A stretch of DNA of 64,000 bases, from positions 248,001 to 312,000 of the forward strand of contig NC_014666.1 in the NCBI RefSeq assembly GCF_000166135.1, in the 5' to 3' direction. This stretch comes from Pseudofrankia inefficax (lineage in GTDB: Bacteria; Actinomycetota; Actinomycetes; Frankiales; Frankiaceae). This document shows, piece after piece, positions 59,646-64,000 of the stretch. The notes below the pieces were generated by a model that was given only the letters and a program-made list of their open reading frames with translations, searched no databases and had not been told where the DNA came from. The position numbers were made by a program, and so were the translations under genes. The stretch's first letter is position 1. Each line of letters starts with the position of its first letter.

Positions 59646-59672
59646 TGGAGCGGGTGACGGGAATCGAACCCG
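59646..59672 (-). other. tRNA-Gly 3'-end fragment, probable attachment site of an integrated element
   Basis: Read on the minus strand: CGGGTTCGATTCCCGT followed by CACCCGCTCCA, that is a T-arm, an acceptor 3' strand matching GCGGGTG, a U73 discriminator and encoded CCA, as in tRNA-Gly. The remaining tRNA (anticodon arm, D arm, 5' GCGGGTG) is absent: the sequence diverges right after the T-loop stem. Integrases that use tRNA genes leave exactly such a 3' copy at the far end of the element. The orientation puts the chromosome on the left and the element on the right. Confidence 0.8.
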
Positions 59673-60159
59673 ATCGGGCCGATCCTCCGACCTGCGTCTT
59701 TCGCGTCTGGCCTGGTCAGAGGGTCTGATTGGGTCAGTCCCGATGAGCTTCCGTCGGGTTGCACCGGTGCGTGCTACCGCCGGTGCTGCCGGCGGATCAT
59801 GGCTGGGTGATCTTCGCTGCCTCTGGGGTCAGTGTTGGTGTTATAGCCAATGATACCCGAAACGCGTATTTGACTCACCGATAAGCGCGGTCACCTCTGT
59901 GGCGGTTTATGTCTGACGATATTTCTCTTGGGGCTTGAATGCGGCGAGTGCGTTTCCTTCTGGGCCGCCTAATTACGTAGCCGGAGGCTCGAAATCCGCT
60001 TCGAGTGGCGCGTCGGACTTTCCTGTTCGGCTGTATCTTGCGGGCGGCCCGGTTAGAATGGGAGTGAAAGTAGAATTCAATAGGGCGGCCCGGGATGGTG
60101 CTGGTAACACCAATCCCGGGCCTTGATCCCAAACCTTGCAGACACAAGGAGTGGAACCC
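59673..60159. other. element left end, non-coding leader
   Basis: Markedly lower GC than the chromosome around 59800-60080. A hairpin, GGCCCGGGAT with GTG pairing CAC and ATCCCGGGCC, lies at 60087-60122, about 40 bases before the first small gene; it could be an attenuator. A minus-strand frame 59875-60777 is antisense to the small genes and is rejected. No integrase or excisionase gene is in this stretch. Confidence 0.5.
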
Positions 60160-60558
60160 ATGGCCATGATGGCAGATGGGGTGCGGGCGCTGTCCTTCAC
60201 CCGTCATGCGGTTGGTTCGATGCGAGAGTTGCCGGTTCAGCGGGCGGTGTTCACGGCGGCGTGTGAGGCGCATGGCTGGTCGGCGGGTGGCTCGGTGTGC
60301 CAGATCGGCCGGGGGCTGCGGGCCTGGTGGTCGGTGGTGCGGATGGTCCGGTCGGGTGCGTATGACGTGGTCGTGGTCGACACCTGGGAGCGGATGTCGG
60401 CGACGGAGGCCGGGCAGCTCTGGGTCCTGGCGCTGCTCCAGCGCTCGGGGGTGCGCCTGCTGGTGGCCCGGGACGGCATCGACACCGGTGATCCGGTCGG
60501 CCACGGTCTGGGCTGTGCGCTGCTGGACATCTGGGGCCGTGAGGCGGTGGCCCGGTGA
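60160..60558 (+). CDS. small resolvase-like protein without recognisable catalytic serine
   Basis: 132 residues from ATG 60160, 8 bases after AAGGAG. The segments LPVQRAVFTAACEAHGW, YDVVVVDTWERMSATEAGQL and GVRLLVARDGIDTGDPVG align in order with the serine-recombinase N-terminal fold (QR...ERGW, YDVLVVWKLDRLSR, GV...I(D)T). The usual YxRVSTxxQ catalytic serine is not seen at its place (FTRHAVGSM), and there is no C-terminal DNA-binding domain. It may be a degenerate recombinase used as a regulator. First gene of a three-gene overlapping set. Confidence 0.6.
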   Translation: MAMMADGVRALSFTRHAVGSMRELPVQRAVFTAACEAHGWSAGGSVCQIGRGLRAWWSVVRMVRSGAYDVVVVDTWERMSATEAGQLWVLALLQRSGVRLLVARDGIDTGDPVGHGLGCALLDIWGREAVAR

Positions 60559-60743
60559 GCGGGTCGGGTGAGCGTCCGGGCGTGCGGCTGGTGGAAGTGT
60601 CGGCCGGGGATGACGGCTGGCATTTCCTGACGGTGCGCTCGGGTGCGACGACACCGGAACTCGTCGCGGGCGTCGCGGCCCTCCCGGCGTCGATCCTGGT
60701 CGACGCGCTGTCGATGGACCGGGGGCCGGCTCGGGTGTGGTGA
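60555..60743 (+). CDS. small unknown protein
   Basis: 62 residues, GTG overlapping the previous stop (GTGA). Sequence starts MSGSGERPGVRLVEVSAGDD; a beta hairpin is likely around GWHFLTVRSGA, then a helix ELVAGVAALPASILVDAL. I recognise no family. Its tight overlaps with both neighbours support that it is translated. Confidence 0.5.
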   Translation: MSGSGERPGVRLVEVSAGDDGWHFLTVRSGATTPELVAGVAALPASILVDALSMDRGPARVW

Positions 60744-61075
60744 TGACGTTCCGGGACTTCCCACCCGGCGTGGTCATCGACTCGGCGCCCTGGCCCGGCC
60801 AGACTGCTCCGGAAGATCCGGCAGACGCGGTAACGGTCGCGCCGGGTAGCGGGGCCGGCTGGGTTCCGCAGGTCGGTCAGGCGGTCGGCCCGGATCGGGG
60901 TCTGACGCCGTTCGAGCAGGCGGTGTGGGAACTGGTTTCGGCGGCCCGGGACGGCGCGGCGGCGGCCTGGATCGCGGTGCTGATCCGCCGCGTTCCCCCG
61001 CAAGGGGTCGTGGCCCTGGCCGACCTTGCGCTCGGTCGGCGCTGCGGCTGCCGAAACGGCGGTCGGCACTCGTAG
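60743..61075 (+). CDS. small unknown protein
   Basis: 110 residues, ATG overlapping the previous stop (TGATG); GTG 60737 is alternative. A proline- and acid-rich first half leads to a helical second half (LTPFEQAVWELVSAARDGAA, then AWIAVLIRR), ending in a basic CGCRNGGRHS. No family recognised. Last of the three overlapping small genes of the element. Confidence 0.5.
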   Translation: MTFRDFPPGVVIDSAPWPGQTAPEDPADAVTVAPGSGAGWVPQVGQAVGPDRGLTPFEQAVWELVSAARDGAAAAWIAVLIRRVPPQGVVALADLALGRRCGCRNGGRHS

Positions 61076-61194
61076 CCGGGGGCGTACCGTCGAGGACGGC
61101 CGGCAGCTTCCATCCCCCCGTTGGAGGCTGCCGGCCCTTCGCGTTTTCGGGGTCTAGGGGCTTTGCCCCTGCATTCCTCGGGCTGAGCGGGGCT

Positions 61195-61345
61195 CCTCCG
61201 GCGGGCAGGCAAGCCTTGCTTTGCTCCAGGGTTCTCGGCCGTGCAAGTCCCGCCGTCGCTGCTTTCGCCGATCGTGTCGGGCGCGGGTCTTGCGCGGCCG
61301 GGGTTCCTGGAGCAACCCTCCGGGTGCCTGCCTGCCTGTCGGAGG
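61195..61345. repeat. large imperfect inverted repeat in the element
   Basis: Arms of about 52-57 bases (61195-61246 and 61289-61345) share CCTCCG, GGCAGGC, GCTCCAGG and CGGCCG...GCAAG when one is complemented, around a 42-base loop. Small hairpins flank it (GGGGCTTTGCCCC at about 61157-61169, GGGGCAGAGCCCC at about 61402-61414). In a mobile element such a structure may be a single-strand replication or transfer origin, or a structured RNA. The rest of the 61076-61498 gap shows no gene. Confidence 0.6.
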
Positions 61346-61498
61346 AGACACGCGGACTCTCGCCGTCCCTCCCCCCTCCTCTGGTGGAAGGGCCGGGGTC
61401 CGGGGCAGAGCCCCGCGCTTGGTCTCGTACGCCGTCACGACCAGGGTGCGGGGATCGGGTTTTCGATCCGGGTGGAGGTTCGTGGGCATGATGGAGCC

Positions 61499-61738
61499 GT
61501 GAATGACGAGCTGCCGACGGTGATGCTGCGCCTGTGGCTTGCCGATGCCATCGTGTTGTTCGACTGGTTGAGCAACACGGACCTGAACCTGGTGCCGATC
61601 ACTCATCCGGCCCAGAAGCAGGCGCTGGCAGATCTGCAGTCGCGCATGGAGTGGGACATCGACACCGATCTCGAAAACGTCACCGACGAAGAGATCGCGG
61701 CGGCGCAGGCAGAGGTGGCCCGAGACATGGGCTGGTAG
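61499..61738 (+). CDS. small acidic unknown protein
   Basis: 79 residues, GTG start with GGAG only 2 bases before, so the start is uncertain. The first part (VMLRLWLADAIVLFDWLSNT) is amphipathic, then HPAQKQALADLQSRMEWDID and an acidic helix EEIAAAQAEVARDMGW. It resembles helical accessory proteins of mobile elements only in general character. No family recognised. Confidence 0.5.
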   Translation: MNDELPTVMLRLWLADAIVLFDWLSNTDLNLVPITHPAQKQALADLQSRMEWDIDTDLENVTDEEIAAAQAEVARDMGW

Positions 61739-62182
61739 CCGGCGGCCTGGGACAGCGTCGGGGTCTGACGGAATCCGCGGTGACCGCTCCTAGCGACGGG
61801 CCGACGCTCCGACAGGCGCGGGCGGGGTGGCAGGCCCGACGCGCCGGGGTGCCGAGCGAAGCGAGGCGGGCCCCCGACGCGCGGCGGGACTGACGGGGCC
61901 CCGCCCGTGCATGGCGTGTGCGGCGGCACGGCGCGGCGGCCGAAGGCCGCCCTTGAAACCGTAGAGAAAGTTGGCGACGATCACGTCTCTCGACAACGGC
62001 TCTAGGTCAGCCCGTGGCGGCGAGTCCGTCAACTCCGACTGACGACAGCAGTGCTGCCGGCGCCTTCGGGTGACTGCGGTAGTCGGCCTGGTGCTCGGGC
62101 AGACGTCTGGTGAGCTTCGTTCTGGCAAGTCTCGGACAGGGTTGAAGCCAGGCTGGTGGGCTCGTTCTAATACGCCTGTGTC
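61739..62182. other. 444-base gap before the cargo pair
   Basis: Begins GC-rich with related blocks CCCGACGCGCCGGGG (about 61837) and CCCGACGCGCGGCGGG (about 61874), and becomes AT-richer from 61950. This change of composition marks the beginning of the cargo. CTAATACGCCTGTGTCATGA just before 62183 may hold a -10. No gene seen. Confidence 0.45.
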
Positions 62183-62839
62183 ATGATCACGGTCATGAGT
62201 AGCCACACCAGCAATAGCTCGGGAGCCTGGTTGACCTCGGCGGCAGTGGTCGCGACGTGCGCGCTTGTTTTCACTGTCGCTTCGTTTTGGTGGCTAAACG
62301 CGAGACGGGGGCGCCTAAGGACATTCGAGCCGCACACCTTCGCGATGGTTATAGCGCCACGCATCGTCAGGCTTCGTCTTCCACTCGTCTTATACAACTC
62401 GGGGGCAATTCCGATCGTCGTTCAGGGTATTAGAATACGATTTGTAGATCATCTAATGGGGGAGCCGCTAGGGTGGGTTGGAAAGCGATCGCAGATCAGG
62501 CCTACTTCGAACGAGAATCATGACTTCCCGGCAGTATTTGCAGTATCGGGCCGAAGCGCTGAGCAGATATTTGCCGAGTTCGGAATCGACTCGCTCGGAT
62601 TTGCTCTTGAGGCCCGAGACTATCGCGTTTATCTGGAAGGCCGGCTCGGTCACCGTAAGAATTGGGTTCGAATCGGCGACTTCACTCTTCGGGCCGGCCA
62701 TGTCGCGGAGCCATCCGCCTACATAACGTATGACAATACCCCGGGATCTCTGTCGGAAGAGCAGCGCAGAGCAGCCGATTCCGCTCTAAAGGCGCTAGCG
62801 GAAGGACAAACGAAATTGCCGAGCGCGCCTGATGCTTGA
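62183..62839 (+). CDS. membrane-anchored unknown protein of the cargo pair
   Basis: 218 residues from ATG 62183 (ATG 62195 also possible). One N-terminal transmembrane segment (WLTSAAVVATCALVFTVASF) is followed by a beta-rich domain (RIVRLRLPLVLYNSGAIPIV, then RIRFVDHLMGEP) and a C-terminal helix (EEQRRAADSALKALAEG). I recognise no named family. Codon use includes many A/T-ending codons unlike the chromosome. Its last 8 bases overlap the ATG of the nuclease gene, so the two products are probably made together and may interact at the membrane. Confidence 0.7.
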   Translation: MITVMSSHTSNSSGAWLTSAAVVATCALVFTVASFWWLNARRGRLRTFEPHTFAMVIAPRIVRLRLPLVLYNSGAIPIVVQGIRIRFVDHLMGEPLGWVGKRSQIRPTSNENHDFPAVFAVSGRSAEQIFAEFGIDSLGFALEARDYRVYLEGRLGHRKNWVRIGDFTLRAGHVAEPSAYITYDNTPGSLSEEQRRAADSALKALAEGQTKLPSAPDA

Positions 62840-64000
62840 GAAACCGGCCATTCTCCGCAGGCTAATTGCGCGCTACGGGGCATTGAGGGAACTCGATGGG
62901 TACACGCCTCAATCGCGAGGTGTCGAGTTCAATAGACTACTCGCGGAGGTGCTCGATTGCTACGGGATATCCGCCAAGTCATCTGTTCGCGGGCAGGGTG
63001 AGATCGATGTAGCCTTTTCAATCAACGGAACTCGGTTCATACTTGAGGCGAAATGGGAGGAGGAGAAGACGGACTATGGAAAGATCGCCAAGCTGCAGGG
63101 TCGGGTTAGGCAGCGGCTGGTGACAACGGTCGGTGTTTTCGCATCGATGTCCGGCTACACTGATGACGCGCTGAGTATCGGCATCGGGGGACGACTAGAC
63201 GTCCTTCTTCTGGATCGCCGGCACCTGGAAGCAATGATTTCCGGTGTTGTTCCGCCAGACGAGCTTTTCGATCTACTGATCGATAAGACTTCCTACGAGG
63301 GTGGAGTCTTCCATGATCTTGAAGATCTCTTCCCGTCACCGGCGGGAGATCCGCAGCTGAAATTTGGCTGCCCCGACGACCTGCAGGGCAGACTGGTAAG
63401 ATCGGCGCGGGAAGGAATCACTGCAGAGGTCGTCGCACACGATTTACCGATGTCTTACTTCGGAATGGCCCTTGATTCTGCTGGGCGTCTAATTCTAAAC
63501 TACCCAGAAGGGCTGGTCAGGGTCGACCTGGAGCGGGGCCGGGCAAGATGGATGGCACCATTTACTAAGTGCTATCTTCACGTGCTTCCGACTGCGGCAG
63601 GCGATATCCTGTTTGGGCGAATGTACGGCGTCGGAAGCCTCAGCGGTGGTCGATTGCGGGCGCTCGCTGGCGGGTTTGCGGGCAATGCAATTTTGTTTTC
63701 CGACGATGAAGGCCACGCGCGTGCACTTGACAATGGCGGCGTTCGAGATTGGTCTCCGGAGTTTCCGGGCGAAGCGAATGTTTCCCTTGCGCTGATCGGG
63801 GAGAATCTTGGTGACGAGAGGTGGACGGCTACTGACGTCCCGGGTGCAACCGTCGGTGGTGCTACCTGGGCTCACTCTGGGAAAGTTGCTGCGGTTGGTT
63901 CCTCGGCACTCGAAATGATCGACGCAGCTTCAGGCGCCAGGACGTCGTTCCAACACGACCTCACCAACACCTTCAGCGTCGTCAGCTACGACGACAACCG
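62832..64000 (+). CDS. PD-(D/E)XK nuclease with C-terminal beta-propeller-like region, cut by the window end
   Basis: 389 codons are open to the last base with no stop, and the gene continues outside. Residues 29-140 match an Mrr-like restriction endonuclease fold: RGVEFNRLLAEVLDCYG with Glu32, GEIDVAF with Asp59, and FILEAKW with Glu72 and Lys74, followed by VFASMSGYTDDAL as in Mrr_cat. From about residue 200 there are repeated short-strand units (LDSAGRLILNYPEGLVRVDL, then GRARW; ALEMIDAASGART) that look like PQQ/WD-type propeller blades. ATG 62832 overlaps the membrane protein gene. Low GC and position in the element mark it as transferred cargo. A defence role is inference. Confidence 0.72.
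   Translation, partial: MLEKPAILRRLIARYGALRELDGYTPQSRGVEFNRLLAEVLDCYGISAKSSVRGQGEIDVAFSINGTRFILEAKWEEEKTDYGKIAKLQGRVRQRLVTTVGVFASMSGYTDDALSIGIGGRLDVLLLDRRHLEAMISGVVPPDELFDLLIDKTSYEGGVFHDLEDLFPSPAGDPQLKFGCPDDLQGRLVRSAREGITAEVVAHDLPMSYFGMALDSAGRLILNYPEGLVRVDLERGRARWMAPFTKCYLHVLPTAAGDILFGRMYGVGSLSGGRLRALAGGFAGNAILFSDDEGHARALDNGGVRDWSPEFPGEANVSLALIGENLGDERWTATDVPGATVGGATWAHSGKVAAVGSSALEMIDAASGARTSFQHDLTNTFSVVSYDDN

Follow-up and report, generated by a model that had tools for sequence, protein, structure and literature searches.

A membrane-protein gene overlapping a probable Mrr-type nuclease gene on a tRNA-Gly island of Pseudofrankia inefficax

The window analysed here is a 64,000-nucleotide stretch of DNA from the soil actinobacterium Pseudofrankia inefficax that corresponds to bases 248001-312000 of a single-contig genome of 8,815,781 bases. 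At its right end lie two overlapping genes on the + strand, which had been called in the initial annotation and which were both found to be real. The first, P0002 (62183..62839), encodes a membrane protein of 218 aa that belongs to a mobile family. The second, P0001, occupies 62832..64000 within the window, where the first 389 of 462 aa are encoded; extending the sequence past 64000, as had been suggested, showed that the gene ends outside the window (entire gene, L001:2150-3538). The start codon of P0001 is located inside P0002, and the overlap is 8 bp. The lower GC content that had been noted for the pair was confirmed, with 56.2% for P0002 and 57.0% for P0001 compared to 71.2% and 72.7% for the flanks and 65.4% for the island that carries both genes. 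A promoter and terminator scan gave results near chance.

The island spans 9,197 bp and has the 3′ end of tRNA-Gly(CCC) as its insertion site. Its window part is 59648..64000 (unstranded), and it continues to the window equivalent of 68844. A 25-bp direct repeat is found in exactly identical copies, one per island end. The left copy is att-like and corresponds to the tRNA-Gly 3′ end (59648..59672, unstranded; contig 307648-307672), and the second copy represents the last bases of tRNA-Gly(CCC) (window equivalent 68845-68869; contig 316845-316869). When aligned with G697, a close relative in which a neighbouring gene product was 99% identical, the contig gave two matching stretches, 306642-307672 and 316845-317413, which overlapped by exactly 25 bp of G697. 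Thus, G697 has an empty site where the window's genome has the 9,197-bp insertion. The integrated element proposed in the initial annotation was in this way both borne out and delimited, and the direct repeats of a tRNA 3′ end together with the empty site in a relative place it among tRNA-integrated genomic islands. Six same-genus relatives were compared at the tRNA-Gly place (L067-L072). The tRNA-Gly and the end of the neighbouring gene were separated by about 300 bp in G697 and G494 and by about 6.6 kb in G591, and no tRNA was found in the stretch examined of G674, G548 and G478.

Pfam and NCBIfam scans of six other island genes showed no integrase among these six. Two of the genes matched below the cut-off: a resolvase-like fragment of 140 aa (60136..60558, + strand; a weak Pfam Resolvase match, E 0.0012) and an APH-like gene. 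The others were an XRE-type regulator, a radical SAM gene and two genes without a family. The radical SAM and APH-like genes (L002:4339-6535; window equivalent 64338-66534, outside the window) are also present near a P0002 homologue in G524 (L038:8574-10499), and the radical SAM genes are 54% identical. Roughly 10 kb to the right of the island, an integrase-like reading frame (by eye) ends in tRNA-Ser(TGA) (L002:18817-19955; window equivalent 78816-79954), which is a probable second integration site.

P0001 matched Pfam Mrr_cat above the curated cut-off (E 4.2e-7, 30.5 bits, cut-off 21). The Mrr_cat nuclease core is encoded at 62919..63239 on the + strand (residues 30-136) and is part of a module, formed by roughly the first 175 residues, that is 39-52% identical between P0001 and five relatives. 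With a threshold of E 0.1, Mrr_cat matched the N-terminal pieces of all six module members; L006 searched at full length was not matched. E57, D59, E72 and K74 were present in 6 of the 6 members compared. From the catalytic set originally proposed, D59 and E72-x-K74 could therefore be retained, but not E32: residue 32 reads E, R, R, K, E and L across the six members, and E57 is conserved instead. The domain match and the conserved residues support the assignment of the second gene to the Mrr-like PD-(D/E)XK nucleases, and the N-terminal part of P0001 is probably an Mrr-type nuclease module that is predicted to cleave DNA. A profile of the module searched against the PDB gave two weak matches, to AF1548 at E 0.011 and to AspBHI, a restriction enzyme, at E 0.14, and a phmmer search of the PDB with P0001 gave NusA only, at E 0.24 or worse. 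Nothing was found for P0001 in NCBIfam, and hmmscan against PADLOC gave only PDC-S02 (E 0.0063 and 0.065), with no family-level match. The N-terminal winged-helix domain that defines methyl-directed Mrr (type IV restriction) was absent from the Pfam scan of P0001, in which the only matches were Mrr_cat and, weakly, a Mala_s_1-like family. With the first candidates per genome scored, close copies of the module (E 1e-50 or better) were found in at least 3 of 393 genomes of the class, namely the window's own genome and two with sequences in the query alignment, and at 1e-12 the module was found in at least 8 of 393. Phage records contained no P0001, and viral contigs contained neither P0001 nor its module.

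The C-terminal region of P0001 starts at residue 185 (63384..64000, + strand, cut by the window end) and is a candidate propeller. No significant match was found for residues 185-462. The top sub-threshold matches, one per search, were Tako8 (E 0.32), RACK1 (E 0.82) and a Mala_s_1-like family (E 0.078), all of which we take to be propellers; the last of these searches also returned the non-propeller families DprA_WH, SVM_signal and DUF2963. An internal-repeat test of the tail was not significant (z 2.2 at the best offset, compared with 3.1 for the 95% null), aligning the tail to itself with hhalign gave no convincing repeat, and hhalign against the WD40 tail of the same-genus protein L062 gave a probability of 11%. 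The best local repeat pairs were 39-40 residues apart, which is compatible with blades but no proof of them. The tail had been described as repeating PQQ-type blade ends of the form D-L/A-x-x-G-x-x-W/F, and these are absent as printed: D-[LA]-x-x-G-x-x-[WF] had 0 literal matches and was rejected, and a looser form, chosen after looking, had 2 matches. Judged by its sequence, the tail is probably a beta-propeller.

At least three full-length relatives of P0001 were found with a few peptide patterns, in Micromonospora (L004, 35% identity), a Saccharothrix MAG (L005, 35%) and an Anaerolineae MAG (L006, 27%). The L004 tail ends with four predicted C-terminal transmembrane segments in cis, and part of this C-terminal extension is found in L005, in two shifted frames. 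P0001 is without the extension, and the gene that overlaps its own encodes a transmembrane protein. No transmembrane segments were predicted in P0001 or L006. Two further proteins carry the module on other tails. In G591, from the same genus, the module is followed by a transmembrane segment and WD40 repeats (L062:3611-5509; Pfam WD40, E 1.7e-36), and in G427, from the same taxonomic family, it is followed by a transmembrane segment and a further, unassigned C-terminal region (L061:4590-5855). The transmembrane segment of L062 has a twin-arginine-like start (by eye), and L062 is possibly a nuclease with an extracytoplasmic sensor. The modules of L062, L061 and L004 share 44%, 46% and 49% identity with the P0001 module, whereas their tails and membrane topology differ from P0001, and no P0002 was present in their examined flanks. 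A distant module was kept in L008 (G279). A stretch of 40% identity in L009 (G114) was judged to be spurious; neither profile matched it.

The module was also matched in 867 plasmid records, and four of these were viewed. On an Aminobacter plasmid (L073), a distant module gene is directly followed by a gene annotated as Hachiman HamA and a DEAD/DEAH helicase, and on an Agrobacterium plasmid (L084) by a DUF1837 gene, which presumably corresponds to HamA, and a DEAD/DEAH helicase. In these two places, the module gene is possibly an accessory nuclease of Hachiman. On a third plasmid (L074), the module gene precedes an AAA ATPase and a helicase, and the record of the fourth (L075) carries no annotation.

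Searches of P0002 against Pfam, NCBIfam, PADLOC and PHROGs gave no match. The first gene had been read as encoding a single-pass membrane protein, and one transmembrane segment was indeed predicted, with an SFWW motif (62231..62293, + strand; residues 17-37) and followed by NARRGRLR. The P0002 family has a SFWWLNARRGRL-like motif where the transmembrane segment ends. With a hydropathy cut, the segment was found in 14 of 17 family rows, two of which had a second candidate, and K and R were more numerous after the segment than before it in 14 of 14 (4 to 3 in one case). By the positive-inside rule, the main, C-terminal domain should thus face the cytosol in the predicted topology.

Homologues of P0002 were tallied at 35 other places. 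Among these, G979 and G911 are partial, two copies are from the two ends of one chromosome (G541), and G625 (L031; E 4.8e-4 over 43 residues) was counted as a weak place. Gene neighbours were viewed, with crude gene calls, for 30 of the 35; only the profile search was used for four unannotated plasmids (L015, L017, L019 and L020) and for G625. In G204, a CHAT-like gene is located 44 bp downstream of the P0002 homologue (L036:5169-6916), and its product matched PADLOC PDC-S66 (E 9.9e-8) and SAVED_CHAT (E 9.5e-6) and nothing in Pfam. In G581, the homologue overlaps a DUF6414 gene by 4 bp (L041:4846-6314; DUF6414, E 4.8e-19), an arrangement that is the most like the window's pair and has a different partner. 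In G674 the neighbour is a convergent HNH gene (E 4.7e-13), and in two further places the homologue has a gene upstream of it, for an NTPase at a distance of 59 bp in G188 (AAA_16, below cut-off) and for a DUF2510 protein at 3 bp in G669. Each of these five kinds of neighbour occurred once. Two homologues are on viral contigs (L083:4208-4897 and L033:4929-5609), and the L083 copy is antisense and flanked by apparent tail genes (by eye), like a moron; no P0002 was found in phage records. Several copies of the Streptomyces-plasmid type are located beside catabolic genes (annotated in L014, by eye in the others), and five copies of this type formed one clade with 100/100 support in a tree where 2 of 15 inner branches were well supported. 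On an Arthrobacter plasmid (L018:4327-6552), the homologue is apparently interrupted by an IS3-family element. The G541 copies are at either end of an 8.5-Mb contig (L035 and L045) and probably sit in terminal inverted repeats. P0002 belongs to an unnamed mobile membrane family found on viral contigs, on plasmids and near integrative elements.

The two genes had been put forward as a new two-gene system, with homologues that never occur together named as the result that would speak against it. Both profiles were run over six frames of 114 loci, with flanks of about 1.5 to 8 kb, shorter in some loci. Seven loci matched both profiles, and all seven represent the window's own place. The families were not adjacent at any of 35 other P0002 places or 16 other nuclease-module places, the latter including four of the 867 plasmid records. 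In L006, no P0002 neighbour was present in the roughly 0.6 kb examined downstream, and in G541 both families are present 3.5-5 Mb apart. In this limited sample of 114 loci, a conserved P0002-P0001 system was rejected, since the families are adjacent only here. Because both profiles occur together only at the window's own place, the pairing looks recent, local or accidental.

As a tentative explanation, we favour a propeller-gated P0001 nuclease that would act on foreign DNA and that P0002 would tether at the membrane in trans. P0001, as cargo of the 9.2-kb tRNA-Gly island, would be a cytosolic DNA-defence nuclease with an N-terminal Mrr-type PD-(D/E)XK module, and may act against phages or plasmids. 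Its activity would be gated by the C-terminal probable beta-propeller when this binds an invader product or DNA. P0002 would be independently mobile, with a cytosolic domain coupled here to the nuclease by the gene overlap, and would most likely keep P0001 at the inner membrane, the entry point of foreign DNA. From the transmembrane segments that L004 carries in cis, together with the gene overlap, we infer the tether in trans and with it a contact between the two proteins. The explanation is further favoured by the Mrr_cat match with its conserved residues, by the different tails to which the module is joined, by the plasmid module genes next to HamA, DUF1837 or helicase genes, and by the E. 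coli precedent described below. Several observations speak against this explanation: the families are adjacent at no other examined locus, the sister of P0002 (G674) and the next copy in the tree, on a viral contig, are without the nuclease (support 86/81 and 82/75, moderate), and L006 has neither a transmembrane segment nor, in the roughly 0.6 kb examined downstream, a P0002 neighbour. The weak results for the propeller (repeat test and hhalign) and the phmmer, NCBIfam and PADLOC searches of P0001 also count against it.

The main rival, a real possibility in our estimate, is that P0002 acts alone, for example as a prophage moron that excludes superinfecting phages at the membrane, that P0001 acts alone as a nuclease, and that their overlap is a recent assembly accident on the island. 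The pair seen nowhere else among the examined loci, the homologues on two viral contigs, with L083 antisense between tail-like genes (by eye), and the many Streptomyces-type copies without a close same-strand partner would all fit. However, the 8-bp overlap and the matched low GC (56.2% and 57.0%) suggest joint transfer, and same-strand neighbours at 59 bp or less (G204, G581, G188 and G669) show that the family does get coupled. A wider version of the tethered nuclease, which we regard as unlikely, is that actinobacteria have a modular class of Mrr-nuclease receptors coupled to the membrane, in which one module would be combined with interchangeable sensors (a WD40 propeller behind a transmembrane segment, another transmembrane-linked region or a cytosolic propeller). 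The membrane tie would be in cis by transmembrane helices or in trans by P0002, and P0002 would be a shared adaptor paired elsewhere with CHAT-like, DUF6414, HNH or NTPase proteins.

Many toxin-antitoxin pairs have the partner gene upstream and overlapping, as P0002 is to P0001. P0002 could in that case be an immunity or antitoxin-like partner that restrains the nuclease and frees it when infection disturbs the membrane, and the changing partners (CHAT-like, DUF6414, HNH and NTPase) would fit a shared membrane sensor. We consider this improbable, as many P0002 copies have no effector alongside and the full-length relatives L004-L006 have no P0002 in their examined flanks. It is equally doubtful that the module is non-defensive, either as an element-maintenance or other island nuclease or as an inactive protein; the Pfam and NCBIfam scans of island genes gave no recognisable defence gene, but the catalytic residues are kept from actinobacteria to the Anaerolineae MAG, and the patchy distribution (at least 3 of 393 genomes with the close module) fits an accessory function.

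The tethered, propeller-gated nuclease can be compared to several known systems. P0001 has in common with the Mrr_cat and PD-(D/E)XK restriction nucleases (PF04471; AF1548, 1y88; AspBHI, 4oc8) a core with D59 and E72-x-K74, and differs in having only 29 residues ahead of the core and a 278-residue tail. In excerpts of Kaur et al. (2020, PMC7159879; 2021, PMC8195603), Mrr-like and other REase effectors are listed in bacterial conflict systems, the Mrr-like ones in the 2020 paper, and propellers are described as scaffold or sensor regions; compared with the systems in these excerpts, P0001 had neither a vWA nor a MoxR partner in view next to it. The open-access literature searched contained no paper on DUF6414 and none on an Mrr and WD40 antiphage restriction endonuclease. 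The closest parallel is in Vassallo et al. (2022, PMC9519451), excerpts of which describe 21 validated E. coli defence systems, 15 of them in mobile elements and 6 in regions suggestive of decaying ones, and among them an anti-phage system that combines an Mrr-family nuclease at the N-terminus with a 7-bladed beta-propeller. The initial statement that no named system has this gene pair holds within the literature searched, but does not extend to the nuclease-propeller idea, which these excerpts show to be published. The sensor role suggested for the putative propeller of P0001 is plausible and is strengthened by the E. coli protein and by the Mrr-transmembrane-WD40 fusion in the same genus. 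The part of the propeller in activation or target choice of the Mrr-type nuclease is stated as open in the excerpts of PMC9519451; one nuclease module on different tails, including a WD40 tail behind a transmembrane segment, offers natural swaps for a test of gating. Should the P0001 tail prove to be a propeller, its order of parts, as judged from the published description, would be that of the E. coli protein, and the difference is that here a membrane gene overlaps the nuclease gene. P0001 may then be a variant of the E. coli Mrr-propeller kind, with P0002 perhaps holding it at the membrane.
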